Shown here: piece by piece, positions 27,783 to 44,125 of the stretch
Numbering within the stretch: the first letter of the stretch is position 1
How the letters are laid out: each line of letters begins with the position of its first letter
Virus record (IMG/VR): IMGVR_UViG_3300014501_000005
Location: 1-62,152 of that record
Source of the DNA: a virus
DNA length: 62,152 bases
Strand: one strand, 5' to 3'
Position numbers and translations under genes: made by a program
The notes under the pieces: model-generated
The model's database searches: none
What the model saw: only the letters and a program-made list of their open reading frames with translations
Told to the model about the DNA's origin: nothing

Positions 27783-27953
27783 TTACTGCCGGGAAATCGA
27801 TTTTGTGGGATCAAGTGGGATACTAATCCGCCTGACATCTCCACAACTTGTACATACTAAAATTATCCAAACAAACGTATCGCCAGTGTGGCCCTTAACC
27901 TCAGAGCAAAAGAATCTGTGATTGTTACTGCAAGTATCCCCGCTCTTCGCCAT
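27783..27953 (-). CDS. Small zinc-ribbon protein (56 aa)
   Basis: From ATG 27953: MAKSGDTCSNNHRFFCSEV, then WIILVCTSCGDVRRI. Four Cys/His ligands form a zinc ribbon. Overlaps the HNH gene end by 29 bases; an upstream extension of the frame inside the HNH gene is less likely. Unknown role. Confidence 0.65.
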   Translation of the reverse strand: MAKSGDTCSNNHRFFCSEVKGHTGDTFVWIILVCTSCGDVRRISIPLDPTKSISRQ

Positions 27954-28377
27954 TTTCAACCCTCTTAATCCAATTACAATTGGCACAAAGCAATTGATAT
28001 GTTTTTTCAATTTTTGGTAGGTCTAATAAATATCTGTAGTATACTTCTCCATGCCCTAACTTCTCAAACTCTCGCGCCCCGCCTCCATTAATATGATCTA
28101 TTTGCAAGGCACGTTCATCATCAAACCCACATCGAACACATTTACCCCCCAGCTTTTCTAATACGGACCGACGGAGTTGTATGAACCGATTATGCCTACG
28201 CCTGTTAAATTCAATGCGCTTTTCCGGGGTATGTGCGTGATATCTTAAACGGGCCCGCGCATTATATTCTTCTAAAGTTAAGCAAGAACCCCAATAGTAA
28301 GGTCGTCCTTCTGATAATCGCTTCGCTTTCCACGCTGCTACCACTTCTGGATTCCTACATTTATTGTCCGAAGCCAC
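27925..28377 (-). CDS. HNH endonuclease
   Basis: 150 residues. A basic helical N-terminus (EKRIEFNRRRHNRFIQLRRS) is followed by GGKCVRCGFDD, ALQIDHINGGG and YQLLCANCNWIK, a standard HNH core with two CxxC pairs. Overlaps the phosphatase gene end by 17 bases. Free-standing homing-type endonuclease. Confidence 0.9.
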   Translation of the reverse strand: MASDNKCRNPEVVAAWKAKRLSEGRPYYWGSCLTLEEYNARARLRYHAHTPEKRIEFNRRRHNRFIQLRRSVLEKLGGKCVRCGFDDERALQIDHINGGGAREFEKLGHGEVYYRYLLDLPKIEKTYQLLCANCNWIKRVENGEERGYLQ

Positions 28378-29330: not shown

Positions 29331-30914
29331 TTAAGTATAGGACGATGAGTTACGTCTAAACCTCGGAATTGGATTGTATTCGTCTGTATCTGCGAATCCT
29401 GTTACATCTATTGCTGGTGAACCACTTTGGAAGAAATCCATGTCCTTCGAGCGCTGGGTTTGCTTGCGGCCTTTGGGTCTGAGCGTCATTGCATACTGAG
29501 TTGCGTTTAACAGATGGTCGTTTCTCTTGCGCGGCTTCTCTTTGGAAAGTCCCTTTTGAGGTCCAACGGCGAAGGAATCCCAAGTATAGTGAGTAATCTC
29601 ATGCTCAAAATTAGGACAACCATCGATAAGATAGAACTTGGGATGACGACTATTAGGAGTGATTGTAGCGTTGATATACTCTCTAGAAACATTCAGTCCG
29701 TAATCTTCTCCAACATCAGGCAGTCGTACTGGGATTCCGGCCTCGCGCCAGAGCTGGGCTCCTGTTTTGTGAGTCTCAGCGTTGCGTTGGCTGCCCCATT
29801 TAGGATCAAGTAGCCAGATGTCGATTGGGTCTCCACCGCATTTGATCTTGATGCTTTTGGCATGTTCACTGACTATTTGCTCCCGCTCGTAATACTCACG
29901 GTATCCGAACAGATCGCCGTTGTCTGAAACTGCAATCCATATAGCGGCTGTGACACCTGTTGCGGCGGGATCAATACTGACAATACGTTGCCAATAACGC
30001 GGTATAACGAAAGGTCGTACCACATGTTTGGCGCGGTCCCACATGGGGTATACAAGTCCGGACCGCCTAACGAATTTTCCATAAAGCCTCGCGCCCTCTT
30101 CTGGATCACCTGCCCACATCTCTAGCAACCGAGTCTTCTCTATTTCAGGGACAAACGGGCTGTTAAGAGTACTAAGCTGGCAAAACTGCAAGTCATGATT
30201 ACCGGCCAAAAACTCTTCGTAAAGATCAAAGACCCATGGGGTGCGAACACCAGAATTAATGTCGGTAAGAGGAGTAAGAGTGAGAAGAATACGCCCGCCA
30301 CAGTCCACAGTGCGTTGATAACACTCATCATAGACATCAGATTCACATTCCTCGTCAATCCAAACTAAATCAACACTCGCGCCTTGAAACTTCTCTCTTC
30401 CCGCATCTGCTGACTTACCTGTAATGATACTGCCATTTTCAAAGAATACTTGGAAGTCGCCGTCTTTGACATCCCTAATCGAACCATCGTTCGGTAGAAA
30501 TGGCGGATGGTTCTTGCCATACCGGAGCTTTTCATGCCAGATGACATCCCTCAGAACGCTGAAGTCCAAACCCACTACCCAGATGTTTTTGGGTCCATCT
30601 GGGATTGGAAGGTCTTTGACGTATTCCCAGGCTGGTTCGTTTCTGAAGTAATCTTTTCCAAGAGCCCAGGCAACGGCAATGAACGCGCCCAAGATCGTTT
30701 TACCGCTTCGATTTCCACCGAGGAGGCCGAAAACCTTAACACCAGCATCGAACCGTACGAGTGCTTCAAGTTGTTCCTCCCAAGGCTTAAAATACTTAAT
30801 ATAACTCTTAGCCTGCCTCTTCTGGATCAGAAGGTCCAGAGCTGCTAACCTCTCGGCTTCCGGCAGTCTATTAAGCTCATTAAGAGCTTGGTCCCTCTTG
30901 CTATAGTCCACCAC
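29331..30914 (-). CDS. Terminase large subunit
   Basis: About 527 residues if started at the GTG at 30914 right after the upstream stop; the ATG at 30956 overlaps the upstream gene by 41 bases. Motor: Walker A GGNRSGKT, Walker B VDLVWIDEE, coupling LLTLTPL. Nuclease: SIDPAATG, WLLDPKWG and RNDHLLNATQYA supply the three acidic residues. Normal length. Drives and cuts DNA during packaging with the TerS-like protein and portal. Confidence 0.95.
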   Translation of the reverse strand: MVDYSKRDQALNELNRLPEAERLAALDLLIQKRQAKSYIKYFKPWEEQLEALVRFDAGVKVFGLLGGNRSGKTILGAFIAVAWALGKDYFRNEPAWEYVKDLPIPDGPKNIWVVGLDFSVLRDVIWHEKLRYGKNHPPFLPNDGSIRDVKDGDFQVFFENGSIITGKSADAGREKFQGASVDLVWIDEECESDVYDECYQRTVDCGGRILLTLTPLTDINSGVRTPWVFDLYEEFLAGNHDLQFCQLSTLNSPFVPEIEKTRLLEMWAGDPEEGARLYGKFVRRSGLVYPMWDRAKHVVRPFVIPRYWQRIVSIDPAATGVTAAIWIAVSDNGDLFGYREYYEREQIVSEHAKSIKIKCGGDPIDIWLLDPKWGSQRNAETHKTGAQLWREAGIPVRLPDVGEDYGLNVSREYINATITPNSRHPKFYLIDGCPNFEHEITHYTWDSFAVGPQKGLSKEKPRKRNDHLLNATQYAMTLRPKGRKQTQRSKDMDFFQSGSPAIDVTGFADTDEYNPIPRFRRNSSSYT

Positions 30915-30915
30915 T

Positions 30916-31299
30916 TTACCCGCCCAATACAAACTCTGCCGTGGTGCCCGCCCCACTGCCAGTCAAACTCAAAGCTGTGATACCAGCCCCGCCAGCAGCC
31001 TCAAGGAAAGTAATAGCTGATCCCGGCTCAAGCGTTACCACGGGATTCAAGCCCCCACCATTCGGCGTCCACGTAACAGATAGCGTTTGTGATGGATGCA
31101 GGTTCTTGATATAAACAAACTGAGTCGGTGAGATCGGTAAGCTAATCGAAACTGGGCTGGTGCCAATCGAAGCCGTTTGCAGCTCCGTAAAGGCGCTTCC
31201 AGTCATGGCAAGCCCCGCGAATAGCTTAGTATAGGCTACGGTGCCAGTCTGACCATCGGTTATATTAATTGACCCAACAATACTTATTGTAATTGCCAT
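30916..31299 (-). CDS. Small beta-rich structural protein
   Basis: 127 residues from ATG 31299 (TAATG with the HNH stop). MAITISIVGSINITDGQTGT and VYIKNLHPSQTLSVTWTPNG, a beta-sandwich profile like phage decoration proteins. Sits between terminase subunits rather than with capsid. Function inferred weakly. Confidence 0.6.
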   Translation of the reverse strand: MAITISIVGSINITDGQTGTVAYTKLFAGLAMTGSAFTELQTASIGTSPVSISLPISPTQFVYIKNLHPSQTLSVTWTPNGGGLNPVVTLEPGSAITFLEAAGGAGITALSLTGSGAGTTAEFVLGG

Positions 31300-31820
31300 T
31301 AAGAACAACCTCGCATATACCGGGCAACGGCTAAATGCTCTTCCGCCGTACCGTTACTTTTTATATTATTTGCCTTATGACTAATTATAGCAATATTGCC
31401 CTTTATATATCCCTCGAATGAATTGGTTCTATCAATCGAAGGACTATTATTGCTAAGTGTTCCCTTACCACGTCCGGTGATTAAAGGTATGCCCAGAATA
31501 GGACAAATGGCTGGAATATGAATATCAGAGATATCGATATTAAAATCCCATCCACATTCCTGTGCTCGATGTTTAGCCCCTACCCATATCTTCCATTCTA
31601 GTGTATTAGACTGACCGTGCGTATGCCAATGATTACGACCGATTAAAAGGCATCCACAACTACGTGTTCTACCGCTCTTTAAATTCTTCGCAGAAGTAGT
31701 CGTTATATTACCACAATCGCATTTACAAATCCAACGAGTTTCCATTTTGAAACGTCCTAATAGTCCAGAAGCTATTAAACGTCCAAATCGCCGATTTGTT
31801 AAATCCTCACAAGGTTTCAT
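31299..31820 (-). CDS. Zinc-ribbon HNH-like endonuclease
   Basis: 173 residues. LTNRRFGRLIASGLLGRF, then WICKCDCGN and RTRSCGC form the zinc ribbon common in AP2/HNH homing proteins. The second half ICPILGIPLI ... SPSIDRTNSFEGYIKGNIA matches the Cys/D/N core of related phage nucleases. It begins inside the TerS-like stop (ATGA overlap). The N-terminal half resembles the plus-strand protein at 52593. Confidence 0.8.
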   Translation of the reverse strand: MKPCEDLTNRRFGRLIASGLLGRFKMETRWICKCDCGNITTTSAKNLKSGRTRSCGCLLIGRNHWHTHGQSNTLEWKIWVGAKHRAQECGWDFNIDISDIHIPAICPILGIPLITGRGKGTLSNNSPSIDRTNSFEGYIKGNIAIISHKANNIKSNGTAEEHLAVARYMRGCS

Positions 31821-32248
31821 TGAATTGAAACCTTCTCTTTTTTGCTAATAGAGGCTCGAATAAGATCGAGGTCCTTTTGGCTGAGTTCGCCGAATATATT
31901 TACTTGCCCCTCTCCAGATGCCCAACCCTTTATTTTACATATCTTTAGGAGCACTTCAGCGCTCTTGTCATTAGCGCCTTCTTCTTCAAGCTTCTGGGCT
32001 AACACCTGCATCTTGCCAACAACGCTGTCTTGCGTGAACGAAGGGTCCCTGGCTAGCTCACTATGATATCTATGTCGTTCAAGCCAAAGGGCTTTCTGAA
32101 AACTAACCCTATTCAGTATCTTATGGCATTCCTCGCTGGTAACTTCCTCGCCGAGTTCAGTAACGGCTTGCTTCAATGAGCACCCAGTCTGTGCCATCAG
32201 CAGTATTGCTTCTTGCATCCAGTTGCTCAGTTGGAATGGTTTGCTCAT
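31817..32248 (-). CDS. Terminase small subunit-like protein
   Basis: 143 residues from ATG 32248 (MSKPFQLSNWMQEAI); an ATG at 32296 lies upstream of the predicted transcript start and is less likely. A helix-turn-helix-like part (LSNWMQEAILLMAQTGCSLK and following) precedes a long helix. It ends with the AEVLLKICKIKGWASG stretch, typical of TerS C-terminal regions. First gene of the late block, two genes before TerL. Confidence 0.75.
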   Translation of the reverse strand: MSKPFQLSNWMQEAILLMAQTGCSLKQAVTELGEEVTSEECHKILNRVSFQKALWLERHRYHSELARDPSFTQDSVVGKMQVLAQKLEEEGANDKSAEVLLKICKIKGWASGEGQVNIFGELSQKDLDLIRASISKKEKVSIQ

Positions 32249-32270
32249 AAAACGAACTACTCGCCCTTCG

Positions 32271-32289
32271 TATATCCCACTAAGGGATA
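32271..32289 (-). promoter_or_regulatory. Palindrome at the late promoter
   Basis: GTATATCCC, 5-base gap, GGGATATAC: a perfect 9-bp inverted repeat (from about 32270 to 32292) covering the -10 and start-site region of the late promoter candidate. It is placed to act as an operator. Confidence 0.6.
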
Positions 32290-32315
32290 TACACAAATGA
32301 GAGCGTTTTGTTACA
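32278..32315 (-). promoter_or_regulatory. Late promoter candidate (element A)
   Basis: On the minus strand: TGTAAC (32315-32310), 18 bases, TATATC (32291-32286), then CCTTAGTGGG. Two further copies at 49936 and 50049 share both boxes, the exact 18-base spacer, TGTAACAAAAC and GTGTATATC-N-CTTA. It fires into the TerS gene and the whole late block. Likely read by the phage ECF-like sigma factor (49210); this link is inference. Confidence 0.7.
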
Positions 32316-32804
32316 CACTATTTTGCCACTTAAGTGCTTTAGAATCAGTAAATGCTCTTTTTAGGGCTAAGTAGTCCTATTCATGGGACTTAAAGTCCTT
32401 TATAATCAGTGACCACCCTTTTGACACAAATTATTTTCATGTCCCGTCTAGATTGAAAACCAGATCAATTTTGCGCAATTATCGCTAATTTTCGCTTAAG
32501 TCCTTTATTTATCGATATATACACCATAATCGCCCTAAGCCCTTGATTCCAAACACCTTTAACTCCTTTGACCTTAATCAGTTATAGCTAGGCTATCTGT
32601 TGCATTTTCAATTTCTTAAATCTCGCTGGGGCATAACCAACACCAATCCCTTTCGCGAAATTTACAAAGCCCCAACTCCATTGGTATCGCCAATGCTTAC
32701 AACAAGATAGCTTGTAGGAAGCTGCTAATATAAAGAGCGTTTGCGAATTTTTCTGAAATGTGAAAAGTGGCAGCAAGGCAAGCGACACAAGGGAGTTATG
32801 GCTT
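32297..32804. other. Divergent intergenic region (508 bp)
   Basis: No gene of either strand fits here. It separates late minus-strand from early plus-strand genes and holds the upstream half of promoter A, four iteron-like repeats and a short AT-rich stretch (32501-32530). I found no convincing sigma-70 promoter for the early genes. Confidence 0.75.
32330..32584. repeat. Four iteron-like repeats
   Basis: Copies: TTAAGTGCTTTAGAATCAGT (32330), TTAAAGTCCTTTATAATCAG (32390), TTAAGTCCTTTATTTATCG (32496), TTAACTCCTTTGACCTTAAT (32559, followed by CAGTTA). Spacing 60, 106 and 63 bases. Such direct repeats in the divergence region could bind a replication initiator or a repressor. Confidence 0.65.
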
Positions 32805-32951
32805 ATGACACAACATGCTATGAACGTGGCTGTAGCGTTGAAGATACTGACGCCAAGGGAAGTTAGCAGCGGGCAATGGTTCTATCATGGGCAACTCAAT
32901 GGAAAGTATGTGTTGCGGAACATGAGAACTGGACAACGAAGGCTAGTCTAA
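32805..32951 (+). CDS. Small early protein (48 aa)
   Basis: MTQHAMNVAVALKILTPREV and on to a basic C-terminus (RNMRTGQRRLV). GGGAG lies 9 bases before the ATG at 32805; a longer in-frame start at 32760 has no ribosome site. First gene of the early block. Unknown; small basic early proteins often target host functions. Confidence 0.55.
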   Translation: MTQHAMNVAVALKILTPREVSSGQWFYHGQLNGKYVLRNMRTGQRRLV

Positions 32952-32964
32952 CACACTGGAGGAT

Positions 32965-33108
32965 ATGATGATCGTTATCAAAGCAAACGAGATACAGCGA
33001 ACGATACTGAAGCTTGCGACTGTGACACATCAAAAGCGAGCGATTAAACAAGGCAAGCTGAATGCTAAGAGATTCAAGCGTATGATCGGTAAACGAGTTT
33101 TCGTCTAG
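32965..33108 (+). CDS. Small basic early protein (47 aa)
   Basis: MMIVIKANEIQRTILKLATV then a Lys/Arg-rich tail (KQGKLNAKRFKRMIGKR). Strong GGAGGA site. Very basic, so nucleic-acid binding is plausible. Directly upstream of the hammerhead ribozyme. Confidence 0.6.
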   Translation: MMIVIKANEIQRTILKLATVTHQKRAIKQGKLNAKRFKRMIGKRVFV

Positions 33109-33114
33109 AAGTTA

Positions 33115-33173
33115 TGGCGAAACATGGGCTAACTGCCCATGTATGCTGGTAGATAGCCAGCACTGATGAGCCA
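33115..33173 (+). ncRNA. Type II hammerhead ribozyme
   Basis: All core parts are present. Stem II strand TGGC (33115-33118), then GAAA (33119-33122). Stem III ACATGGGC/GCCCATGT with loop TAACT (33122-33142); its closing A-U pair plus A143 gives the cleavage triplet GUA (cut after 33143). Stem I is TGCTGG/CCAGCA (33144-33162), followed by CTGATGA (33163-33169), and stem II is closed by GCCA (33170-33173). Every conserved core base matches the consensus. The open stem is stem II, hence type II. It would cut the early mRNA between two small genes. Confidence 0.9.
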
Positions 33174-33188
33174 CGAATGGAGGCTAAC

Positions 33189-33278
33189 ATGAAGATTCTA
33201 CAGTGGTTAGTTGGACGGAAACTGACGAAGAACGAGGAGTTGCGGATGTTGCTGTCGAAATTGCGACGTGCAGCATGA
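33189..33278 (+). CDS. Very small basic protein (29 aa)
   Basis: MKILQWLVGRKLTKNEELRM and a basic end; GGAGG before the ATG. First start codon after the hammerhead cleavage site, so the ribozyme would define this gene's 5' end. Stop overlaps a 15-codon ORF (33275-33322, ATGA), itself overlapping the next gene. Confidence 0.45.
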   Translation: MKILQWLVGRKLTKNEELRMLLSKLRRAA

Positions 33279-33318
33279 GCGATGAATACGTGATTATCGC
33301 GGGGAAGAGGTATTGGCT

Positions 33319-33477
33319 ATGAGAGCGGTGACCGTGTATGACAGGCGACAAGATGGTTGGCGGTATGTTAAAACCGTTGAAGTAGGAGCGGAGTCAGTTC
33401 CGTGCTGTTGCAAGCGATGTGCCAAACAGCAAAAAGTGGCAATTGTGCCGCAAAATGGCGCTGATTTGGGCAAATAG
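33319..33477 (+). CDS. Small Cys-rich protein (52 aa)
   Basis: MRAVTVYDRRQDGWRYVKTV, then CCCKRCAKQQK, a possible zinc knuckle. ATGA overlap with the preceding tiny ORF. Unknown. Confidence 0.5.
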   Translation: MRAVTVYDRRQDGWRYVKTVEVGAESVPCCCKRCAKQQKVAIVPQNGADLGK

Positions 33478-33620
33478 TGGCACAGTGATTTTGCAAGTGC
33501 TTTGTTTTCAGCAAGCCGAGTTTGGCAAGCGGGTTGCAAGATGGATTGTGCAATTCGGCAGTTCAAAATTCGATGGAATAGCCGACCATCGTCTTAACAT
33601 TGGCTAAATTGGAGGATATT

Positions 33621-33923
33621 ATGGCACTTAAAGACACGATTGTTTCATTGGCGACTGGGATTGATCCGAAGGCGTTGACGTACAAGAACGATACCAAAAA
33701 CCGTCCAATGGCAACTAGCAGAAACATTGGCGTGATTCAAGAAGGCGTTCCGGTTCCGGGATTGGCTGGCAAGGTTGGACGGATGCAAGCTACGTTTTGC
33801 GTGAATTATCTCAATATCGTTTCGGCTGAGGAATATGAAGTTAAGGCCGAATCACGGGAAGCATCGGAGCTTGAGACGCTTAAGGCGTTGCTGGCGAAGT
33901 ACGGGAATCCGGATCAGGAATAA
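33621..33923 (+). CDS. Hypothetical early protein (100 aa)
   Basis: From ATG 33621 with an excellent GGAGGAT site: MALKDTIVSLATGIDPKALT and a C-terminal charged helix (SELETLKALLAKYG). No motif recognised. Confidence 0.6.
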   Translation: MALKDTIVSLATGIDPKALTYKNDTKNRPMATSRNIGVIQEGVPVPGLAGKVGRMQATFCVNYLNIVSAEEYEVKAESREASELETLKALLAKYGNPDQE

Positions 33924-33932
33924 CCGAATAAA

Positions 33933-33990
33933 GTAAATTGCCTGTGGATGCTATAACCCATGAGGACTAGCATCCATCGGGGGAGTTTAC
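33933..33990 (+). ncRNA. Structured leader hairpin
   Basis: Outer arms GTAAA (33933) and TTTAC (33986), inner 8-bp stem TGGATGCT/AGCATCCA (33945-33952, 33969-33976). Lies just before the GGAGG of the next gene, so it may control its translation or protect the mRNA end. Confidence 0.55.
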
Positions 33991-34010
33991 TTTGATTGGA
34001 GGACGCTAAA

Positions 34011-34232
34011 ATGCAATGGAAGCTAAAGATTGCGCTTGGGATGAGTGCCTTGGTGTTGGGATTGCTGTTTAGTCTCACACTAGCGTACGGGCAAACGCTG
34101 GCTAAACTGTACAAAACAAGCAATTTAGGCCCGAATGTTGTTGCTGTGGCGTGTTTTTATAGCGGTGATCCGGTGGTTGATAAGCATGGGAGTTTGATAA
34201 TCGTGAGTTGTCCAAGCATAAACACGAAGTAA
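34011..34232 (+). CDS. Small secreted or membrane-anchored early protein (73 aa)
   Basis: From ATG 34011 after GGAGGA: MQWKLKIALGMSALVLGLLF then SLTLAYGQTLA, a signal peptide with a likely Ala-X-Ala-type cut or a membrane anchor. The short exported domain has two Cys (VACFYSGD ... IIVSCPS). Unknown; superinfection exclusion is one option. Confidence 0.6.
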   Translation: MQWKLKIALGMSALVLGLLFSLTLAYGQTLAKLYKTSNLGPNVVAVACFYSGDPVVDKHGSLIIVSCPSINTK

Positions 34233-34298
34233 GCTTCAATACGGGCGATTATTCCACCTAAAGAGGGTCTATAGTCGCTCGAATGAAGTTTATTTTGG
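34233..34298 (+). ncRNA. Leader hairpin containing a dispersed repeat
   Basis: Outer CTTCA/TGAAG and inner GGGCGATT/AGTCGCTC (8 pairs with two G-U) enclose repeat copy 10. Followed by TTTTGGAGGAT and the next start codon, the same design as the leader at 33933. Confidence 0.45.
34254..34269 (-). repeat. Dispersed bipartite repeat, copy 10
   Basis: Reverse orientation, 5-base spacer, intergenic, in the loop of a hairpin. Confidence 0.9.
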
Positions 34299-34304
34299 AG
34301 GATT

Positions 34305-34427
34305 ATGACAGACAAATCACTGGTTGTGTGGACCATTGTTATCTTTGGCGTAAGTACAATAGTTGCAATTTTGCTTTATGCGGCGATTGGTTATGCTATT
34401 GTTCATTTTATTACTAAACTTTGGTAA
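34305..34427 (+). CDS. Single-pass membrane peptide (40 aa)
   Basis: MTDKSLVVWTIVIFGVSTIV and on; one long membrane helix. Strong GGAGGA. Unknown. Confidence 0.6.
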   Translation: MTDKSLVVWTIVIFGVSTIVAILLYAAIGYAIVHFITKLW

Positions 34428-34440
34428 ATTGGAGGTTACA

Positions 34441-34782
34441 ATGACGCGCAGAAAGTTTTCTCAACGGGATTATGATGCAATTGATCGGATGCAAAAGCAT
34501 AATCTTGGGGGGCAGTTTCGGGATGCCGTTTCCGATGACACGCCGATTGATGAGTTTCGGCGGAGATTAGTGAAAAGGCATGTTGCGGCTAAGATGACGC
34601 TTGCTAAGGTTGCGGCTAGGAAGATTACGTGGATATTCCTCCAGCAAGGGATTAAGCGTGGGGATTTGCTGGTTGAGAGTAATGTATATTTGAATTCCAT
34701 CATTCGCAAGTACGGCATTGAGCCGTTGCTTTGGGATTTTACACGCAAGGTGATTAAAGAGAAACTGAAGGAGCAAGCATAA
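34441..34782 (+). CDS. Basic helical early protein (113 aa)
   Basis: From ATG 34441 after GGAGG; the frame opens further upstream within the previous gene. MTRRKFSQRDYDAIDRMQKH, RRRLVKRHVAAKMTLAKVAA and a C-terminal RKVIKEKLKEQA. Helical and basic, possibly DNA- or RNA-binding. Stop fused to the next start (TAATG). Confidence 0.65.
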   Translation: MTRRKFSQRDYDAIDRMQKHNLGGQFRDAVSDDTPIDEFRRRLVKRHVAAKMTLAKVAARKITWIFLQQGIKRGDLLVESNVYLNSIIRKYGIEPLLWDFTRKVIKEKLKEQA

Positions 34783-34961
34783 TGGACGAATTAAACGATG
34801 ACACGATATTTATTACAACATCCGAGGATGGATTTGAGGTTTACTATCCGAATTCTAATGTGCCAGATGTGTATTTGAGCGTGGACGATATGCTGAGGCA
34901 TGTTAGGGCGAAATTGCAATCCATGAAGTTTAAGGATGATAATATTGCTGGGGGTGTTTAA
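34782..34961 (+). CDS. Small acidic protein (59 aa)
   Basis: MDELNDDTIFITTSEDGFEV, acidic, no motif. TAATG joints at both ends support it. Confidence 0.6.
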   Translation: MDELNDDTIFITTSEDGFEVYYPNSNVPDVYLSVDDMLRHVRAKLQSMKFKDDNIAGGV

Positions 34962-35377
34962 TGGGATTGTATAATCGAAAGCTATTCGACAAGCATATGG
35001 ATGCTATTGATGCGGCATCCAGTTGTATCTCAGCTGCCATTAGTGGGGATGAGTATGCTGGTAGGATTGCGCATAGGCTGGATGATTTTGTTGAAATATC
35101 GGAGTTGTTCGTTAAGAACAAACGAGATATGAGAGATGTGGCTAGGACGTTTCATCGGTTGGTGATTGGTTGTAAGGTGAGTGGATTGGAATCGTTTAAG
35201 CTTGAAAGCATACTTGAACGATGTAGATTGAAAGTTAAGGGCCGGTTGTTTATGACACGGATGATATTGGCTGAGGGCGATGCGAAGGCTAAGTGTAATG
35301 AGCCGGATAATCATACGCAGCCATGCAAGTGTAGGCCATTGAGATTAAAACAGCTAGCAGATCAGGAGCAATCATGA
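34961..35377 (+). CDS. Hypothetical helical protein
   Basis: 138 residues, helical (LFDKHMDAIDAASSCISAAI; RDVARTFHRLVIGCKVSG), C-terminal Cys/His cluster (CNEPDNHTQPCKC) that may bind zinc. Unknown. Confidence 0.6.
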   Translation: MGLYNRKLFDKHMDAIDAASSCISAAISGDEYAGRIAHRLDDFVEISELFVKNKRDMRDVARTFHRLVIGCKVSGLESFKLESILERCRLKVKGRLFMTRMILAEGDAKAKCNEPDNHTQPCKCRPLRLKQLADQEQS

Positions 35378-35520
35378 ACCAAGACGGGATGCTGGAGTGT
35401 GAAGATTTGATAGAAGTGTTTATGCGTTTCAAGAGTGGTACCTTCGTAAACTGGCCTGCTATTACTAAGGAACTAAATCGTCGTATGTTCCCGCTAGAAA
35501 CGCCAAAGGAGAAGCCATGA
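35374..35520 (+). CDS. Small hypothetical protein (48 aa)
   Basis: MNQDGMLECEDLIEVFMRFK and WPAITKELNRRMFPLE. ATGA overlap at both ends. Unknown. Confidence 0.6.
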   Translation: MNQDGMLECEDLIEVFMRFKSGTFVNWPAITKELNRRMFPLETPKEKP

Positions 35521-35681
35521 ACGAGAAAGATAAGATAATCCAATCCCTAGGGGATGCATATCGATATTGTGATGACGCTGAACGTGCGGGGATTATGATT
35601 GCTGCGCATATGATTGCGGTAGATCAGAAGTGGAAACCGAAGAAGTTTCAGGCGGAGGTTAGAAAGGCGGGGACAAGATGA
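35517..35681 (+). CDS. Small hypothetical protein (54 aa)
   Basis: MNEKDKIIQSLGDAYRYCDD, helical, ATGA overlaps. Unknown. Confidence 0.6.
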   Translation: MNEKDKIIQSLGDAYRYCDDAERAGIMIAAHMIAVDQKWKPKKFQAEVRKAGTR

Positions 35682-35818
35682 AAGACAACGTAAATTGGAT
35701 ATTGTACGATATTGAACTCTCAATGCGCTATCTCAAGAGTATGCACATAATCGAAGCGTATGAACTTTTAATACGAGTAGTAGTGGAATTAAAAGAAATA
35801 CGAAAAGGTTTACAATGA
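35678..35818 (+). CDS. Small helical protein (46 aa)
   Basis: MKDNVNWILYDIELSMRYLK then a Leu/Val/Lys helix. ATGA overlap with both neighbours. The next 20-codon frame (35815-35877, MIFLTMFLFATFVWLCVWRP) is a membrane peptide that may also be translated. Confidence 0.55.
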   Translation: MKDNVNWILYDIELSMRYLKSMHIIEAYELLIRVVVELKEIRKGLQ

Positions 35819-35877
35819 TTTTTCTAACGATGTTTTTATTCGCAACGTTTGTTTGGTTGTGTGTTTGGAGGCCGTGA

Positions 35878-36066
35878 ATGTCAACGATAATTGAAGAATT
35901 CGCAACGCGTGAGGATCGGGACATACGTTATAAAGTATTGAGAGAAAAGCGTCAAAAGCATGTCGGTAAGTTTTCTACGTCCAAACTGCATGAATACGTG
36001 ATTCCTGAAACGGGCGAGATTAAGACCATTGGAGTGGACGTTTATTGTGTTAGCATCGGGGTTTAA
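35878..36066 (+). CDS. Small hypothetical protein (62 aa)
   Basis: MSTIIEEFATREDRDIRYKV then KHVGKFSTSKLHEYVIPETG. Basic/acidic mixed helix and short sheet. Unknown. Confidence 0.55.
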   Translation: MSTIIEEFATREDRDIRYKVLREKRQKHVGKFSTSKLHEYVIPETGEIKTIGVDVYCVSIGV

Positions 36067-36068
36067 TG

Positions 36069-36085
36069 GACCCATTAGGAGGTGG
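36069..36085 (+). repeat. Dispersed bipartite repeat, copy 11 (also a ribosome site)
   Basis: GACCC, 6-base spacer ending GG, AGGTGG. The AGGAGGTGG end lies 5 bases before ATG 36090, so this copy doubles as a Shine-Dalgarno. Confidence 0.9.
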
Positions 36086-36089
36086 ATTT

Positions 36090-36494
36090 ATGAGAGTTTT
36101 AGTTTGTGGGGATAGGAATTGGACGAATCAAGCCATTATATTACGTGAATTGCATACGGTAGAAGATGAATTTGACGAATACATCACGGTTGTAATCCAC
36201 GGCGATGCGAGGGGCGCGGATACACTAGCGGGATTGGCTGCAAGACAAATGTGTGGCTATGAACATCCCAAGGAACAGGTTGACGATAATACGCCGAAGC
36301 TTGAGGTCTATCCCGCTCAATGGGACAAGTTTGGTCGAGCGGCTGGGCCAATTCGCAATCAACAGATGTTGGACGAGGGGAAGCCGGATTTGGTGTTGGC
36401 GTTTCATGCGGATATTGAGAATTCCAAGGGCACGAAGGATATGGTTAATCGCGCGAGAAAAGCCGGGATTCCGGTTAAGGTTTTTGGAGTATAA
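36090..36494 (+). CDS. DUF2493/SLOG-family protein
   Basis: 134 residues from ATG 36090. MRVLVCGDRNW, TVVIHGDARGADTLAGLAAR and FGRAAGPIRNQQML ... PDLVLAF match the YspA-type SLOG Rossmann-like family that binds nucleotide-derived ligands. The alternative ATG 36066 (TAATG with the previous gene) adds eight non-family residues. Function in phages unknown; SLOG proteins often link to nucleotide signalling. Confidence 0.85.
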   Translation: MRVLVCGDRNWTNQAIILRELHTVEDEFDEYITVVIHGDARGADTLAGLAARQMCGYEHPKEQVDDNTPKLEVYPAQWDKFGRAAGPIRNQQMLDEGKPDLVLAFHADIENSKGTKDMVNRARKAGIPVKVFGV

Positions 36495-36495
36495 C

Positions 36496-36816
36496 GTGGA
36501 TTTGCATAGACAATATTGGCAATGTCCACAGTGTCAAGAAACACTTGGTGCGTTTACAGATACGAACTTGGAGATTATCAAACGAATGCATCTGGATGCG
36601 CATCATAAGCTTTGGATCGGACAGAATCCGTTTGATTATTTGCATTTGAACAACCATACACGGTATTTGCGGGAATCGACCGGACAATGGGAGGACTGGA
36701 GTGATGTGGAGTTTTTGACTGGATGCGGGATTGCAGTTGAGTTTGAGGACAAACGAACAACAGAACAGCTTGAGAAACGGTATAAGCCAAGAGATAACTT
36801 TGCGGGAGGGTTTTGA
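36496..36816 (+). CDS. C2H2-like zinc-finger early protein
   Basis: 106 residues with GTG start at 36496, two bases after the upstream stop. MDLHRQYWQCPQCQETLGAF and IIKRMHLDAHHKLW give CPQC plus H..DAHH, a zinc-finger-like set. The C-terminal region is polar. The frame upstream of this start lies inside the previous gene and is not used. Confidence 0.65.
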   Translation: MDLHRQYWQCPQCQETLGAFTDTNLEIIKRMHLDAHHKLWIGQNPFDYLHLNNHTRYLRESTGQWEDWSDVEFLTGCGIAVEFEDKRTTEQLEKRYKPRDNFAGGF

Positions 36817-37339: not shown

Positions 37340-37693
37340 ATGGGCAGCGAATGGACAAACGGTGAGGTTGATTGGAAAGAGCGTTGTGAGCAAACGATCA
37401 ATCCGACGACTAAATATCCAACTAAGTGCAATGGATTCTTAATGGTAAGTTGGTTTTCGACGCTGATTCCCGATAGATGGTGCAAGAAAACTGAGTGTAT
37501 TACTTGTCATAATCGGACGTTTAAGCATATCTCAGTTGCGTCAAAGACAGATGCTCCTTTTTACAAGGAAGGACCTAAAGCTGCGGGGATGTTAGAATGT
37601 CCAACTTGTCATGTGTTTGTTAATAAAGTCAGCCATCATCGAGGGGCTTTGATGTGTGATTATTGTATAAATGCTAATGTGGAGGTTTATTGA
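37340..37693 (+). CDS. Zinc-ribbon early protein (117 aa)
   Basis: From ATG 37340: MGSEWTNGEVDWKERCEQTI; CNGFLMVSWFSTL; WCKKTECITCHN; then LECPTCHVFV and LMCDYCIN. At least two CxxC pairs. Immediately upstream of the first amidoligase and overlapping it (TGATG). Confidence 0.65.
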   Translation: MGSEWTNGEVDWKERCEQTINPTTKYPTKCNGFLMVSWFSTLIPDRWCKKTECITCHNRTFKHISVASKTDAPFYKEGPKAAGMLECPTCHVFVNKVSHHRGALMCDYCINANVEVY

Positions 37694-38739
37694 TGTTGAA
37701 AGCAAAGAATCCAGTTGGGGATAGGTTTATTGCGAATATCGGTCAGCCAACAATCGGAACTGATCCGGAGGTGTTTGCATTGGACGGTAAAGGGAAGTTG
37801 TTTCCGGCGTTTGAGTTTTTACCGCCAAAGCACGCGCCACATATTAACAATCACAAATGGGGTACAACGAACTCGTATTGGGATGGGTTTCAAGCGGAAT
37901 ATCGGTTTAGTCGGGGATATAGTTGTTTCATAGAATTGATGATGAATGTGCAAGATGGGTTGAATCAGATAGCAACTAAAGCGAAAGAGAAGGATGCAAA
38001 CGCTAAGTTAACGCTCAAAAACGTATTTCGCATACCTGCTAAGACGCTTAAGGATGCGTTTGATCCGCATGTTGAGCTTGGATGTGAGCCGAGTTTCAAT
38101 GCTTATGGATTAAAGGCAACGACTGTTGAGAATCCAAGGGAATTGAGATATCGGTTTGCCGGTGGGCATATGCATTTTGGAACCGATTACGCAGTTCGGG
38201 ATCGTGAAATTGCGGTTAAGACATTGGATAAGATTCTTGGACTTTGGAGCATTGGAGCGGCCAAATCGATTGATAATCCAATCAGGCGACGATATTATGG
38301 GTTGCCGGGTGAGTATCGGAAGCCAAAGTATGGTGTTGAATATCGGGTTTTGAGTAACTTTTGGCTATCGCATCCAATTGTTTATCAGGCAACGTGGGAG
38401 ATTGGGCGGATGGTTGCAATGTTTGCATATAGCAAGTTCGCTGATCTTTGGGTTGCGCCGGAGGAGATGGTTATTGAGGCGATTACAAACTCCGATACGA
38501 AGATAGCTAAGAAGTTGTTAGAGTTGAATAAACCGATTTTCCTGTGGCTGTTTGGGCAACGGGGATGGAGTTTGCCAGAGCGAGAGCGGTTGTTTAATGT
38601 TGGGATTGATGGAATTGAATCCATTATTCGCGATCCAGAGGATATTGAAGGGAATTGGAAGGGAAAGATTGATCCTTGGGGCCATGATAAACAGCATACT
38701 TGGTTGGGGTTTGTAACGAGCGGAGATAAGCTAATCTAA
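37693..38739 (+). CDS. Phage amidoligase, COOH-NH2 ligase type 2-like (first)
   Basis: 348 residues from ATG 37693. IGTDPEVFALDGKGKLFPAF near the N-terminus carries the DPE metal/ATP-site motif. RFAGGHMHFGTDYA near residue 155 and YGVEYRVLSNFW near residue 215 complete the glutamine-synthetase-like fold signature of this family (PF14395 type, known from phiEco32-like phages). It would join a carboxyl to an amine using ATP, forming amide bonds in small peptides or on a macromolecule. A second paralogue lies at 41508. The island also holds amidotransferase, ATP-grasp and gamma-glutamylcyclotransferase genes. Substrate unknown. Confidence 0.85.
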   Translation: MLKAKNPVGDRFIANIGQPTIGTDPEVFALDGKGKLFPAFEFLPPKHAPHINNHKWGTTNSYWDGFQAEYRFSRGYSCFIELMMNVQDGLNQIATKAKEKDANAKLTLKNVFRIPAKTLKDAFDPHVELGCEPSFNAYGLKATTVENPRELRYRFAGGHMHFGTDYAVRDREIAVKTLDKILGLWSIGAAKSIDNPIRRRYYGLPGEYRKPKYGVEYRVLSNFWLSHPIVYQATWEIGRMVAMFAYSKFADLWVAPEEMVIEAITNSDTKIAKKLLELNKPIFLWLFGQRGWSLPERERLFNVGIDGIESIIRDPEDIEGNWKGKIDPWGHDKQHTWLGFVTSGDKLI

Positions 38740-39017
38740 TGAAAATCACATGCCCAATCTGCCGGGGACGATTTTTTCTCAATCATAAGGTTGTGAAGTC
38801 GATTGGGCGATGTCCAATGTGTGATGATAACAAGTTTGTGGATACGGAGATTGTGTGCGCATGTGGACGGCCAGTTGTGAAAATGGTTGAGGGGACGCTG
38901 GTTTGCGCCGCTAATGACTGCGCGAAACGTGCGGTTACGCTGAAGGACAAAAAGATTGATGTTGTTCAACAAGAGTTTGATGCGTTTGGGGAAGGCAGCA
39001 TTTATTGTGGACACTAA
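38739..39017 (+). CDS. Zinc-ribbon protein
   Basis: 92 residues with three or four metal sites: CPICRGRFF, GRCPMCDDNKF, CACGRP, LVCAANDCAK. Start overlaps the amidoligase stop by one base (TAATG). Tight coupling suggests a shared pathway; role unknown. Confidence 0.75.
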   Translation: MKITCPICRGRFFLNHKVVKSIGRCPMCDDNKFVDTEIVCACGRPVVKMVEGTLVCAANDCAKRAVTLKDKKIDVVQQEFDAFGEGSIYCGH

Positions 39018-39326
39018 CGCCAAAAGTTCTGCCCGTTGTAGGGATGGAAACGCGCCCCGACGGTGGCAAGACCGCAGTGGCCCTGTATGGGCCAAGGAGG
39101 GGAACCTTCGCATCTTATCACTTTGTTTCGGTTGATGCGGGAATGGTTTTGCGATTAGGTCAATACTGAACGTGGAGAAAGTGCGGCTAAGTGTAAAAGC
39201 CCTCGGCCTTGGTCGAGGTTCTTACTGCGATTTCATTGAAGCGTTTAGCATATCTATGACCGGCTATTTCGATTAACTCAAACATCGGGACAGGACACAA
39301 ACTCTAGCGAACGGGCAGAAACTCCT
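39018..39326 (+). ncRNA. Large structured non-coding element, about 295 nt
   Basis: No credible gene. TTCTGCCCGTT (39027-39037) pairs perfectly with AACGGGCAGAA (39310-39320). Inside are GGCCC/GGGCC (near 39081), CGCATC/GATGCG (near 39108 and 39138), and CCTCG/CGAGG (near 39214). This is a closed multi-branch fold of a kind seen in stable RNAs. It is not a tRNA, and I could not match it to RNase P, tmRNA, group I intron or a known riboswitch. Confidence 0.65.
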
Positions 39327-39425
39327 ATGAATGAATGCATGTATTGTAAGACAAAGGCAACGGAAAAGCAATTGAAAGACCATGAATTATGGTGCGCGGT
39401 CAAAATTCACACGGATAAACGATGA
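39327..39425 (+). CDS. Minimal zinc-knuckle peptide (32 aa)
   Basis: MNECMYCKTKATEKQLKDHE then LWCAVKIH: CxxC ... H..WC is a compact zinc-binding set. Overlaps the next gene (ATGA). Real despite its size, in my view, because the metal ligands and the joint both fit. Confidence 0.6.
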   Translation: MNECMYCKTKATEKQLKDHELWCAVKIHTDKR

Positions 39426-39868
39426 TAGAGATATATACCGATATTTGGGATCATTACAACAAGCCGAATACGACTGTGTTGTTTACATATGCGACACAGT
39501 TGAAAAAGAATGGCTTGGCGTACATGGCGCGTGGGACATCTTGTCAAGCGAAGCATCGGATCGCGGGGATTGAGAAACGGTTAGGGAGAGCAATTTCTTT
39601 AAATGGCCCTCTAATACAAGCAATTTACCCGAATCTTTGGGCGTTTCCGACAAAGCAAAGGTGGTTTGGAGAGGCGCGTTTAAATATGATTATGATAAAC
39701 ATCCTACAGCTTACTGGATTAGCTGCTAACTCACCAACGATAAGATTTTATTTTCCTCGACCCGGATGCGGGCATGGGGGGTTGGATTATAGAGCGAGCG
39801 GGATCAGGACAGCTTTAATGGTATTGCCAGATAATGTTTTTGTTTGTTGTAAAAGGGAGAAGGAATGA
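39422..39868 (+). CDS. Possible macro-like/ADP-ribose-type protein
   Basis: 148 residues. MIEIYTDIWDHYNKPNTTVL; LQLTGLAANSPTIRFYFPRP; the C-terminal PGCGHGGLDYRASGIRTALM resembles the final glycine loop of a small phage family distantly similar to macro domains ('PGCG.GGLDW..V'). Tentative. Sits between the structured RNA and the cyclotransferase. Confidence 0.5.
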   Translation: MIEIYTDIWDHYNKPNTTVLFTYATQLKKNGLAYMARGTSCQAKHRIAGIEKRLGRAISLNGPLIQAIYPNLWAFPTKQRWFGEARLNMIMINILQLTGLAANSPTIRFYFPRPGCGHGGLDYRASGIRTALMVLPDNVFVCCKREKE

Positions 39869-40296
39869 AGCCAGCTAAGTTGTTTGTTTACGGTATCTTA
39901 AAGCGCGGGTATAGCCTTGATCTTGGGCAATTCCCTGAAACTTCATTCACCGGGGAAGCGTTTCTTCAAGGCGCACAGCTTCATGCAATTGGGAGTGGGG
40001 TTGGATTGAGGTTTGTCCTAGACCCATTGGAGGTGGCTCACGGGGAGGTTTGGGCGATTCCGGATAGCATGTGGGACTATCTCGATGAGATTGAGAGCAA
40101 TGGGAGGGTTTATACGCGCAAGATTGTGGATGTGAAACAGGAGTTTGCTACTGGGCCTGATTATGGCGGTGAAACACACACAGTCAAAGTATGGGTATAT
40201 GCTCATACCATGCTTGCTACTCAAGCGGAGTATGATAAGCATTATCCGAAAATTGAAGATGGGAGGTATGTTGGCTATGAGAAAACTCAAATTTAA
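39865..40296 (+). CDS. Gamma-glutamylcyclotransferase-like (GGCT/AIG2) protein
   Basis: 143 residues. LFVYGILKRGYSLD is the YG.LKRG substrate loop; WDYLDEIESNGRVYTRKIVD contains the expected catalytic Glu before the G..Y.R motif; VWVYAH ends the barrel. GGCT proteins cyclise gamma-glutamyl groups and release an amine, the reverse type of reaction to amidoligases. The same combination is a recognised neighbourhood. Repeat copy 12 lies within the gene. Confidence 0.85.
   Translation: MKPAKLFVYGILKRGYSLDLGQFPETSFTGEAFLQGAQLHAIGSGVGLRFVLDPLEVAHGEVWAIPDSMWDYLDEIESNGRVYTRKIVDVKQEFATGPDYGGETHTVKVWVYAHTMLATQAEYDKHYPKIEDGRYVGYEKTQI
40021..40036 (+). repeat. Dispersed bipartite repeat, copy 12
   Basis: GACCC, 5-base spacer, AGGTGG inside the cyclotransferase gene, same strand (codes LDPLEVAHG). 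Confidence 0.9.
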
Positions 40297-40429
40297 AGCA
40301 ACGAGTTGTTGTTTACGTTGTTCTTTTATATTATATAAACAGTATCGGTATAAAGATGTACCGAAACAAACCTATTGCTATTTTTGCGGTGGGCTAAATG
40401 AAACACGATTAGTGAGGCACCTACGATGA
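40277..40429 (+). CDS. Small zinc-ribbon protein (50 aa)
   Basis: MRKLKFKATSCCLRCSFILY and TYCYFCGGLNE: two CxxC pairs. Starts inside the cyclotransferase end (20-base overlap) and ends overlapping the next start. Confidence 0.6.
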   Translation: MRKLKFKATSCCLRCSFILYKQYRYKDVPKQTYCYFCGGLNETRLVRHLR

Positions 40430-40680
40430 TAAAACTCGATCAGCCAGTGGGTTCTGAAGGGCTTACGATTCAAGATTTGATAGTTACGCTTTTGAAGGAG
40501 CTGGCTAAGAACAACCTTCTTTGCACGGGGATTGTGTTAGATATCGACAATCCGGGCCAGTCCCGTATATTCGGGCATGGCAATGAGCAATCGATGGCCG
40601 CGATGTTGGAGATTGGCGTTAAGGGGTTGACGAAGGGAACGATTGGGGATATGCAAAGGTTTACACAGGGCGGCAATTAA
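40426..40680 (+). CDS. Hypothetical protein (84 aa)
   Basis: MIKLDQPVGSEGLTIQDLIV, helical with a central strand (CTGIVLDIDNPGQ). Unknown. Confidence 0.6.
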   Translation: MIKLDQPVGSEGLTIQDLIVTLLKELAKNNLLCTGIVLDIDNPGQSRIFGHGNEQSMAAMLEIGVKGLTKGTIGDMQRFTQGGN

Positions 40681-40922
40681 TCCACCTGAAAAGGGTCACT
40701 TAGACATTGGCGTACTGTAACTGACACGCCAATTTCGATAGCACCTCCCAAGGGTGCGGTCGATTAGCTCGCAAGGGGAAGCCTGCATTAGTGCAGCCAG
40801 TACCTGCTTACCGGACAATCGACAACCGGAGTCGATGAGCGAAAATAAACGTCCGAAGCACAATTGGGGGCGGAGGGTAGTTGAGACTTTTTAGCCCCCT
40901 TTAAATTTCTTTGGAGGATGAT
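40681..40922 (+). ncRNA. Structured non-coding element, about 230 nt
   Basis: Helices: ATTGGCGT/ACGCCAAT (about 40708 and 40727), GCACC/GGTGC, CTGCA/TGCAG, CGGAC enclosing ATCGAC/GTCGAT closed by GTCCG, and a final GGGGGC/GCCCCC followed by TTTAAATTT that could be a terminator or attenuator. It begins with repeat copy 13 and is followed by TTGGAGGATGAT and a start codon. No known RNA family recognised. Confidence 0.6.
40682..40697 (-). repeat. Dispersed bipartite repeat, copy 13
   Basis: Reverse orientation, 5-base spacer, at the 5' end of the structured element. Confidence 0.9.
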
Positions 40923-41003
40923 ATGTTCTGGAGAGTATATCTAGCGCTTTTAGGTATGGCGCTGTTTGGGTTTGGGGCTGGATTCCTTATTGGGAGAATG
41001 TAA
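40923..41003 (+). CDS. Membrane peptide (26 aa)
   Basis: MFWRVYLALLGMALFGFGAG then FLIGRM: one membrane helix. Strong GGAGGA and exact abutment to the next gene support it. Confidence 0.5.
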   Translation: MFWRVYLALLGMALFGFGAGFLIGRM

Positions 41004-41507
41004 ATGGCACTGCCGTTTTATCTGATAGCTAAAGTTACGCTCAAGGGTGGGAGAAGGCTTGCGCTTATAAAGAAATGGGCACCTGAGCCAATGCAAGAGC
41101 GTAATTATCTGCCGAGTGCGTATCAGCAACCCAAGAAGCAAAAAGCCGATGATATTTATGACAAGGAGCTTGGGTTTATTAATTGGGAGTTTCGGTATTG
41201 GGCGATTGAACGGCATGGGAATATGCCTGCGGTTGCGGTTTGTCGGTGCTGCGGGGATTTGGAGCAATCGAAAGAGAAACGCAGGCAACATCATGATAAG
41301 CATAGTTGTACATCGAGTTTGCATTTTGCGTATAAAGAGCTTATTAAGGACAAGAAGTGTGTACTTTGCGATGCTTATACAATCAATACAGAATGGGGAG
41401 TGCCGGTTTGTAATCATATGGGGTGTATAACAAGGTGGAAGTTTGAACCTGATCCAGCGCCATTGATTGAGGCTTTGAGATTGACACAGATGCAGACGGG
41501 AGCATAA
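41004..41507 (+). CDS. Zinc-binding protein upstream of the second amidoligase
   Basis: 167 residues. VCRCCGDLEQ, HHDKHSC, KKCVLCDAY and a final C..C give several Cys/His metal sites. Directly abuts the 517-residue amidoligase. Unknown; zinc ribbons recur before each island enzyme. Confidence 0.65.
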   Translation: MALPFYLIAKVTLKGGRRLALIKKWAPEPMQERNYLPSAYQQPKKQKADDIYDKELGFINWEFRYWAIERHGNMPAVAVCRCCGDLEQSKEKRRQHHDKHSCTSSLHFAYKELIKDKKCVLCDAYTINTEWGVPVCNHMGCITRWKFEPDPAPLIEALRLTQMQTGA

Positions 41508-43061: not shown

Positions 43062-43064
43062 CCC

Positions 43065-43083
43065 AAAGGAGGGTAGCTATATC
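43065..43083 (+). promoter_or_regulatory. Strong ribosome site followed by AUC start
   Basis: AAAGGAGGG (43065-43073), 7-8 bases, ATC TGC GGT at 43081. No ATG, GTG or TTG occurs at usable distance in this frame. Confidence 0.7.
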
Positions 43084-44118
43084 TGCGGTCAAGCGGGAAT
43101 TGTAAGGATGGGCAAGAAGAAGATACCAGAGGATGCGATTACATTGTTGCTAACCGGCAACGAACACCGGGGTAATGATGCAAGCGGAATTGCGTTTGCA
43201 CAAGCAAACGGGGAAGTTAATGTATTCAAAGCAGATGATCCGGCGTGGAGATTCGTCACGTCCAAGTCATATGCGGAGTTTATCGAGAAGAATCTCCGCG
43301 ATGACACATGGGCGGTTATTCTCCATGCGCGAGGTGCATCACAGGGTAGTCCGAGGAAGAATGAAAATAACCATCCAATGTATATGGGGAAGTCCGCTAT
43401 TGTCCATAATGGACAGATTCATAACGATCACACACTGTTTACCAGCCGGAAGTATCCTAAATCTGCTGAGACTGATTCAGATATCATTCGAGCGTTTGTG
43501 GATGAGTTTGGAATCACTGAGAAGTGCATTGAGGAGTTGAATGTGCTTAGTGGATCAGCGGCGGGAGCGGCGATTCATCCGGAGTTTCCGAGGAAGTTGT
43601 TATTGTTTAGAAGCGGAAGCCCGATGATTCTTGGCTCTAATGAAGATTTCTTCGCATGGTCAAGTGAGAAGAACACACTTCATAAGGCTATGAGGCCATG
43701 GGTTGTTCGGTTTAAGATGTATTTTCAGCAACAGAAGCCCGATATGGGATTTGCTCCGATGGCTGACGATACCGCTTGGATCATTGGGGAAGAAGGGCTG
43801 GAGTTTCACGGGAAGTTCAAAGCGTTGTGTGGGAGTTACGTTGAGCCGTTTCGGAAAACTTATGAGAATTACGGGGAGAGACAGAAGCGATGGGATGAGG
43901 ATGCAAAGCGGAATTTGAATATCGTTCGTTCCACCGAAAATGGGTCCCATAACCATAATCGAAAGAAACGGGATCAATTTGACGATGCGTATTGCCCGGA
44001 TTGCAAGATGGAATGGATTATTCCAAAGGGCGGAATTCCGAAGGACTTTACTTGCAATAAGGAAAGGGGCGGTTGCGGAAAGACGTTGATTGCGAAACCG
44101 TTTGTGACGATCAATTGA
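43081..44118 (+). CDS. Class II glutamine amidotransferase
   Basis: About 345 residues if started at ATC 43081, which places the nucleophile Cys at position 2 (ICGQAGIV), as class II Ntn amidotransferases require. The only ATG upstream (43015) lies inside the previous gene with no ribosome site and would bury the Cys. Motifs: RGNDASGIAF, ILHARGASQG, SAIVHNGQIHN and DSDIIRAF. The C-terminus adds a zinc ribbon (YCPDCKMEW ... CNKERGGCGK). It would release ammonia from glutamine or act as an acyl transferase for the amidoligase pathway. A repeat copy is at 43931. Confidence 0.85.
   Translation: MCGQAGIVRMGKKKIPEDAITLLLTGNEHRGNDASGIAFAQANGEVNVFKADDPAWRFVTSKSYAEFIEKNLRDDTWAVILHARGASQGSPRKNENNHPMYMGKSAIVHNGQIHNDHTLFTSRKYPKSAETDSDIIRAFVDEFGITEKCIEELNVLSGSAAGAAIHPEFPRKLLLFRSGSPMILGSNEDFFAWSSEKNTLHKAMRPWVVRFKMYFQQQKPDMGFAPMADDTAWIIGEEGLEFHGKFKALCGSYVEPFRKTYENYGERQKRWDEDAKRNLNIVRSTENGSHNHNRKKRDQFDDAYCPDCKMEWIIPKGGIPKDFTCNKERGGCGKTLIAKPFVTIN
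43931..43946 (-). repeat. Dispersed bipartite repeat, copy 14 (one mismatch)
   Basis: Reverse orientation, 5-base spacer, CGGTGG in place of AGGTGG, inside the amidotransferase gene in the linker (STENGSHNH) before the zinc ribbon. Confidence 0.8.
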
Positions 44119-44125
44119 GGGAGAT

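Follow-up and report, generated by a model that had tools for sequence, protein, structure and literature searches.

Genes around the hammerhead

The window analysed here is the whole contig, 62,152 bases long, of an uncultivated bacterial virus, in which open reading frames (ORFs) were called mechanically. A type II hammerhead motif at 33115–33173 (+) is preceded by an ORF of 47 amino acids (32965–33108, +), the stop codon of which ends 6 nt before the motif. It is followed after 5 nt by the Shine-Dalgarno (SD) sequence GGAGG (33179–33183, +) of an ORF of 29 amino acids (33189–33278, +). The original prediction had placed the motif between genes of 47 and 29 residues; both ORFs are there, and we infer that they are real genes. 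Near the head of this rightward operon is an ORF of 48–63 amino acids (32760–32951, +), a homologue of which precedes a hammerhead in related contigs L135 and L285, while an ORF of 100 amino acids further along (33621–33923, +) has a homologue flanked by two hammerheads in L123 and L125. Other genes of the rightward operon encode a family A DNA polymerase, a Sak4-like protein, a helicase-like ATPase and a protein with a weak match to sigma-70 region 2, a gene content that makes it plausible to call this operon early. The leftward operon contains the terminase, portal and capsid genes, and its terminase large subunit gene (terL, 29331–30956, −; phrog_2, E 1.7e-29) was the query in our searches for relatives.

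Elsewhere in the window an amidoligase module (37690–45120, +), like that of LUZ24-like phages, contains two phiEco32-type COOH-NH2 ligases, at 37690 and 41508, together with a gamma-glutamyl cyclotransferase (39865), a glutamine amidotransferase (43015) and an ATP-grasp-like protein (44335). HNH/endonuclease-VII-like ORFs are scattered among the phage genes at 31299–31820 (−), 9815–10252 (+), 27925–28377 (−) and 52593–53090 (+). The first of these, the only one of the four that was checked, matches a phrog HNH endonuclease, and they are possibly free-standing homing endonucleases. Near the right end of the contig an integrase-like N-terminal match (58897–59574, −; phrog_1, E 1.6e-7) hints at a temperate or recombining phage. 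A candidate phage polynucleotide kinase that could heal cut ends was rejected, as the ORF at 57505–58098 is NT5C-like by Pfam and not a kinase.

Sequence, fold and detection of the motif

Read directly, the sequence at 33115–33173 (+) is UGGC-GAA-ACAUGGGC-UAACU-GCCCAUGU-A/UGCUGGU-AGAUA-GCCAGCA-CUGAUGA-GCCA, where the slash is the predicted cleavage site, and it makes a complete type II hammerhead ribozyme with all core bases present. The stems I, II and III comprise 7, 4 and 8 bp respectively, with I and III capped and II open. All elements lie on the plus strand. The 11.x strand of stem II (UGGC, 33115–33118) pairs with the 10.x strand (GCCA, 33170–33173) and covaries in alignment A1, and the core GAA (G12AA14, 33119–33121), together with A15.1 (33122), is invariant in the same alignment. 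The stem III hairpin (33122–33142, loop UAACU) is closed by A33122–U33142, the A15.1–U16.1 pair, and the stem I hairpin (33144–33162, loop AGAUA) ends with a U–G pair. The catalytic core CUGAUGA (33163–33169) matches C3UGANGA9 and leads into stem II, which is closed by C33118–G33170, the C11.1–G10.1 pair. H17 is A33143, not G, and follows U16.1 to read GUA, so that hammerhead numbering puts the predicted cleavage between 33143 and 33144. The original prediction of a type II hammerhead with a base by base fit, an A–U closing pair in stem III, a G–C closing pair in stem II and a cleavage position after 33143 is therefore confirmed at every invariant position, pairing and stem.

The minimum-energy fold of 33112–33178 is exactly the hammerhead structure (−28.5 kcal/mol, z −5.25). 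When a longer context is folded the GCCA of stem II prefers to pair with a downstream strand, so ribozyme activity may depend on co-transcriptional folding. After cleavage the core strand CUGAUGAGCCAC could also refold with GUGGUUAGUUGG, enclosing the SD and start codon and providing a switch on the 29-amino acid gene. The product 33144–33216 does fold in this way (−24 kcal/mol, z −3.2), and 33163–33216 alone gives a z of −2.3, but these z-scores are modest, 6 of 200 shuffles of 33163–33216 fold equally well and the SD falls in the weak inner part of the structure. We regard such a switch as very unlikely.

The Rfam family RF02276 (Hammerhead_II) aligned to the element over the full model (1–66/66) with 28.0 bits and E 0.0012 in a search of 501 bases. 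The Rfam type II search proposed with the original prediction thus returned a full-length alignment, but with a score below the curated gathering score of 37, and a scan at the gathering cut-off gave no match for the window hammerhead. The gathering score is a curation cut-off and no structural feature, and a scan at that cut-off is too insensitive for the short-loop phage class. The printed consensus of RF02276 pairs positions 2–3 (gG) with the Gc after CUGAUGA, apparently one base off C11.1–G10.1; this offset may be one reason why the class scores low with Rfam.

We built a covariance model, R1, from 18 phage type II elements including the window element and three relatives. The window hammerhead scores 63.6 bits (E 1.6e-17) with R1, although, as for all training sequences, this is high by construction. 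In the 18 sequences 17 of 19 pairs have double changes, which is supportive only, since some of this pairing was a requirement of the descriptor that chose the sequences. R1 found hammerheads in relatives that sensitive Rfam scans miss: L123 and L131 had no Rfam match at E 1, while their elements reach 46–65 bits with R1. A model trained on this class, which lacks the pseudoknot, finds members that the Rfam family misses.

To judge chance we used a descriptor that covers all three hammerhead topologies and asks for stems of at least 4/3/4. Applied to 212 Mb of first-order Markov sequence with the composition of the window, this loose descriptor matched 42 times, or 0.012 per window, and no type II match had 19 or more paired positions; the window element has 19. 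It is the only hammerhead that the descriptor search found in the 62 kb window. A gene junction with two strong hairpins side by side could be thought a chance arrangement or a terminator-like pair, and a terminator or promoter reading of 33115–33173 was considered. It was rejected, as there is no U-run and no terminator call, and the core is exactly the invariant one and has no comparable type II counterpart in the random sequence. We find it scarcely credible that the element is not a ribozyme. The motif is not a product of chance; by structure it is almost certainly a hammerhead, and such a sequence would very probably cleave efficiently.

Docking, gene junctions and relatives

The question of how a short loop I could dock was approached with the same descriptor matches, which are to some extent related to one another. 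Among the matches listed, type II hammerheads split by loop I into a long class (n = 93) and a short class (n = 65), which contains the window element. In the long class loop I/3′-tail complementarity of at least 4 occurs in 96%, versus 70% with shuffled tails, and a fourth stem II pair in only 25%. In the short class the complementarity shows no excess to speak of (26% versus 20%), whereas 95% have the fourth stem II pair. Short-loop elements have an A directly 5′ of stem II in 61 of 65 cases and a U at loop I position 7 in 58 of 65, and where no stop codon lies at the docking spot the A is still present in 19 of 23. The equivalent loop II base is an A in 38 of 46 type III matches.

We take the A before stem II to be the partner of loop I in a reverse Hoogsteen contact. 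Types I and III have a conserved contact of this kind between loops I and II (PMC6155905), and the pattern seen here would fit that contact with loop II opened. With its loop I U and with A33114 (+), which directly precedes the 4-bp stem II, the window hammerhead fits the class without a pseudoknot, and A33114 is probably the docking base for loop I. The classical loop I/3′-tail pseudoknot, usual in type II, was rejected for this element, the longest run being 2; a pseudoknot has been reported for about 40% of hammerheads and so does not define them. The docking class with an A before stem II offers a concrete structural prediction for type II hammerheads. A UCUA/UAGA pairing between loop I and the 5′ flank is also possible in the window.

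The GGC/GCC stem II pattern is matched by at least 120 viral stretches in IMG/VR, and several of these contigs carry arrays of four to seven hammerheads. With so many contigs carrying this one variety, and transcript processing put forward as its role in 2011, the motif is nothing unusual. One-strand arrays of at least five type II, or six type I, hammerheads were seen in the phage contigs L011, L015, L033, L098, L101 and L080.

The IMG/VR census gave 354 non-redundant matches of all types among the matches listed. In these an SD and start codon lie within 80 nt downstream in 54–65% by type (65% for type II) versus about 20% at random. In 55 of the 65 short-loop type II elements listed, an ORF of 40 or more amino acids terminates within 20 nt upstream, versus 9% of random positions, and in 24 of these 65 the docking A and the outermost base of stem II come from the stop codon UA(A/G) itself. 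The window hammerhead has both the upstream stop and the downstream SD and start.

Such packing raises the possibility that the ribosome gates cleavage: a terminating ribosome would cover stem II and the GAAA strand, so that the RNA is cut only when the upstream gene is untranslated, linking mRNA processing to translation. The closeness and sharing of stop codons among the listed matches agree with this, as does the stop of the 47-amino acid ORF, which ends within a normal ribosome footprint of stem II, and in PaP3/PaP4-type phages a type III hammerhead just ahead of the first gene contains the SD AAAGGA in its stem II and loop II. Genome compactness alone, however, predicts tight packing, 62 of the 93 listed type II elements with a long loop I and a pseudoknot likewise lie near stops, and in the window the stop and ribozyme do not overlap. 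Gating by the ribosome is therefore improbable as the explanation here.

Relatives were sought through the terminase, yielding 27 and later 80 loci, on contigs that may be fragments. R1 scores in related contigs were 65 bits in L131/L132, 63 and 46 in L123/L125, 54 and 47 in L135, 52 in L281, 37 in L290 and 34 in L133. In the last two an additional base follows A9, and these may be weak. All 13 descriptor matches near the terminase lie on the divergent strand, upstream of terL and 1.35–5.8 kb away (2.2 kb in the window), and no hammerhead was found on the other, downstream, side of the terminase in 479 kb of related loci. The hammerhead thus recurs in the divergent operon of relatives. In L123 the homologue of window ORF 33621 stands between two hammerheads, and in L285 one hammerhead follows the homologue of ORF 32760, so what is common to relatives is the region, not the exact junction. 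Further searches gave no host among 84,980 prokaryote genomes through related terminases, no relatives in a pattern search with the neighbouring 100- and 138-amino acid ORFs, and no DNA match to phage records for 30500–36500.

One related contig, L147, has four type I hammerheads in the divergent operon instead, 2.5–5.8 kb from terL. They lie at L147:201–277, 873–944, 1166–1225 and 3461–3530 (−), each directly before an SD and ATG. The GCGGC or GUGGC that forms the 3′ strand of their stem I can in each case pair anew with a GCCGC immediately ahead of the SD, a naturally occurring arrangement similar to the engineered RiboJ insulator. A re-formed 5′ hairpin on the downstream product as a rule for type I phage hammerheads was rejected: it holds for 4/4 in L147, but overall for 42% versus 39% of shuffles.

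Hammerheads are present in 8 of 32 rows of the terminase tree, with at least seven gains or losses, six of them forced by well-supported branches, and no clustering. None is detectable in the closest terminase relative, L122/L267 (about 85%); this absence and the patchy presence mean that the hammerhead is dispensable at the site. It could then be a relic or passenger of recombining cassettes in a variable operon head, possibly cleaving but with no selected function there. The roughly seven unclustered changes on the tree would suit a passenger, as would L123 and L148, which share 99.9% identity as far as a point 40 nt short of the first hammerhead and then continue with different cassettes. 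A passenger, though, should decay into mutated cores, and only L133 and L290 carry the extra base; the window element has an intact core and three full stems, and the relatives have unrelated stem sequences yet the same strand and region, implying selection on structure. A mere passenger is accordingly a doubtful reading, less likely still than ribosome gating. Beyond the near-identical terminase side, L123:86–1683 (−) contains a hammerhead, a 100-amino acid gene, a hammerhead and an RRXRR (IscB/IsrB-like) gene, and at the same junction L148:912–3914 (−) contains two TnpB-like (OrfB_IS605) genes.

Probable processing of the phage mRNA and known systems

The simplest account of the element is that it cuts a polycistronic mRNA where two genes meet, as was proposed for prophage hammerheads in 2011 (PMC3088659). 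We consider the probable full explanation to be co-transcriptional self-cleavage of the rightward, replication-side, polycistronic phage mRNA by the type II hammerhead, and processing of this mRNA to be its likely role. Processing of the early transcript, as originally predicted, is the role best supported by the placement at a gene junction, the restriction to the divergent operon in relatives and the precedent of PMC3088659. We infer cleavage, its speed, the protection of the ends and the effect on expression. Once RNA polymerase passes 33173 the three stems would fold, the A before stem II would dock on loop I and the strand would be cut between A33143 and U33144, so that the first small genes and the remainder would be on separate mRNAs. 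The upstream product would end with stem III, one nucleotide and a 2′,3′-cyclic phosphate, and the downstream product would begin with a 5′-OH and with stem I from the very first base. It is the type II layout that would place hairpins at both new ends. In bacterial RNA decay hairpin-capped ends should resist 3′ exonucleases and the 5′-end-dependent RNase E. Such resistant ends would give the two parts of the mRNA separate lifetimes and translation. Against this processing account stand the score below the Rfam gathering value, the lack of a loop I/3′-tail pseudoknot, the longer-context pairing of the stem II GCCA, the patchy presence with absence in L122/L267, and the chance that closeness to stop and SD merely reflects compact phage genomes.

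A broader reading is that selection acts for self-cleavage at the head of the replication operon and not for any one ribozyme, with type I (L147), type II (the window and relatives) and type III (PaP3/PaP4) serving the same region and replacing one another. With the upstream stop codon incorporated into many phage type II hammerheads, translation termination and RNA cleavage would be coupled. We put this forward tentatively, as an unlikely reading.

The role of phage hammerheads has been a question since their discovery in 2010–2011. The window hammerhead is ordinary as a kind, its motif type and proposed role being already known, and informative as a case. It offers one defined junction with sharp predicted ends at 33143/33144, and a comparative frame in which the same divergent operon carries types I, II and III in relatives, one member of a near-identical pair lacks the element, and an analogous ribozyme is present in culturable Pseudomonas phage relatives. 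Since related phages carry all three types in the same part of the genome, the purpose of the hammerhead is testable.

The window element resembles the type II hammerheads of RF02276 (PMC3088659) in its core, three stems, open stem II and capped stems I and III, and differs in scoring 28 versus 37 bits, with a 4-bp stem II, a short loop I and no 3′-tail pseudoknot. Clustered hammerheads flank prophage genes, cleaving in vitro and, for Agrobacterium, also in E. coli, and Perreault et al. 2011 proposed that they cut long transcripts (PMC3088659). Like the window element, the clusters of the Agrobacterium ardA region, Azorhizobium and Clostridium scindens (PMC3088659 Fig. 3) are placed where small phage genes meet, on the strand of the operon. 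In contrast, the window has a single hammerhead and is a virus contig, not a known prophage, in which the packaging and replication operons diverge.

The best GenBank phage terminase matches are all below 30% identity, with Pseudomonas LUZ24-like phages prominent among them, and the window terminase is 26.7% identical to that of PaP4. The window and PaP4 have in common the divergent organisation and the COOH-NH2 ligase/GATase/ATP-grasp/gamma-glutamyl cyclotransferase module, although the COOH-NH2 ligase, GATase and ATP-grasp homologues are only 28–35% identical, and the window does not have the genome-wide similarity of a member of Bruynoghevirus (LUZ24/PaP3-like). Under the favoured explanation the window phage is likely to be tailed and a distant relative of the LUZ24/PaP3-like phages. 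Before the first early gene PaP4, PaP3 and others have UCGU-A-UCGGGA...UCCCGG-CUGAUGA-UUCC-AAAA-GGAU-GAA-ACGA, a type III hammerhead with an apparent U10.1–U11.1 mismatch and with the SD AAAGGA of that gene inside stem II and loop II (L331:233–288, +; also in PaP3, Delta, Ka1 and others). Its stem III covaries (G–C in PaP3, A–U in PaP4) and its stem I is changed on both strands in Ka1, and the region is matched, in some cases only in part, in 72 Pseudomonas phage records. A PaP3 hammerhead is reported among the active core variants of PMC3088659 (Fig. S6), which also mentions a natural U10.1–U11.1 mismatch; these are presumably the same molecule. The PaP3/PaP4 element differs from that of the window in being of type III, in its mismatch, in containing the SD and in its unrelated sequence, with terminases about 27% identical, but the two are alike in standing at the start of the replication-side operon of phages with homologous terminases and amidoligase modules.
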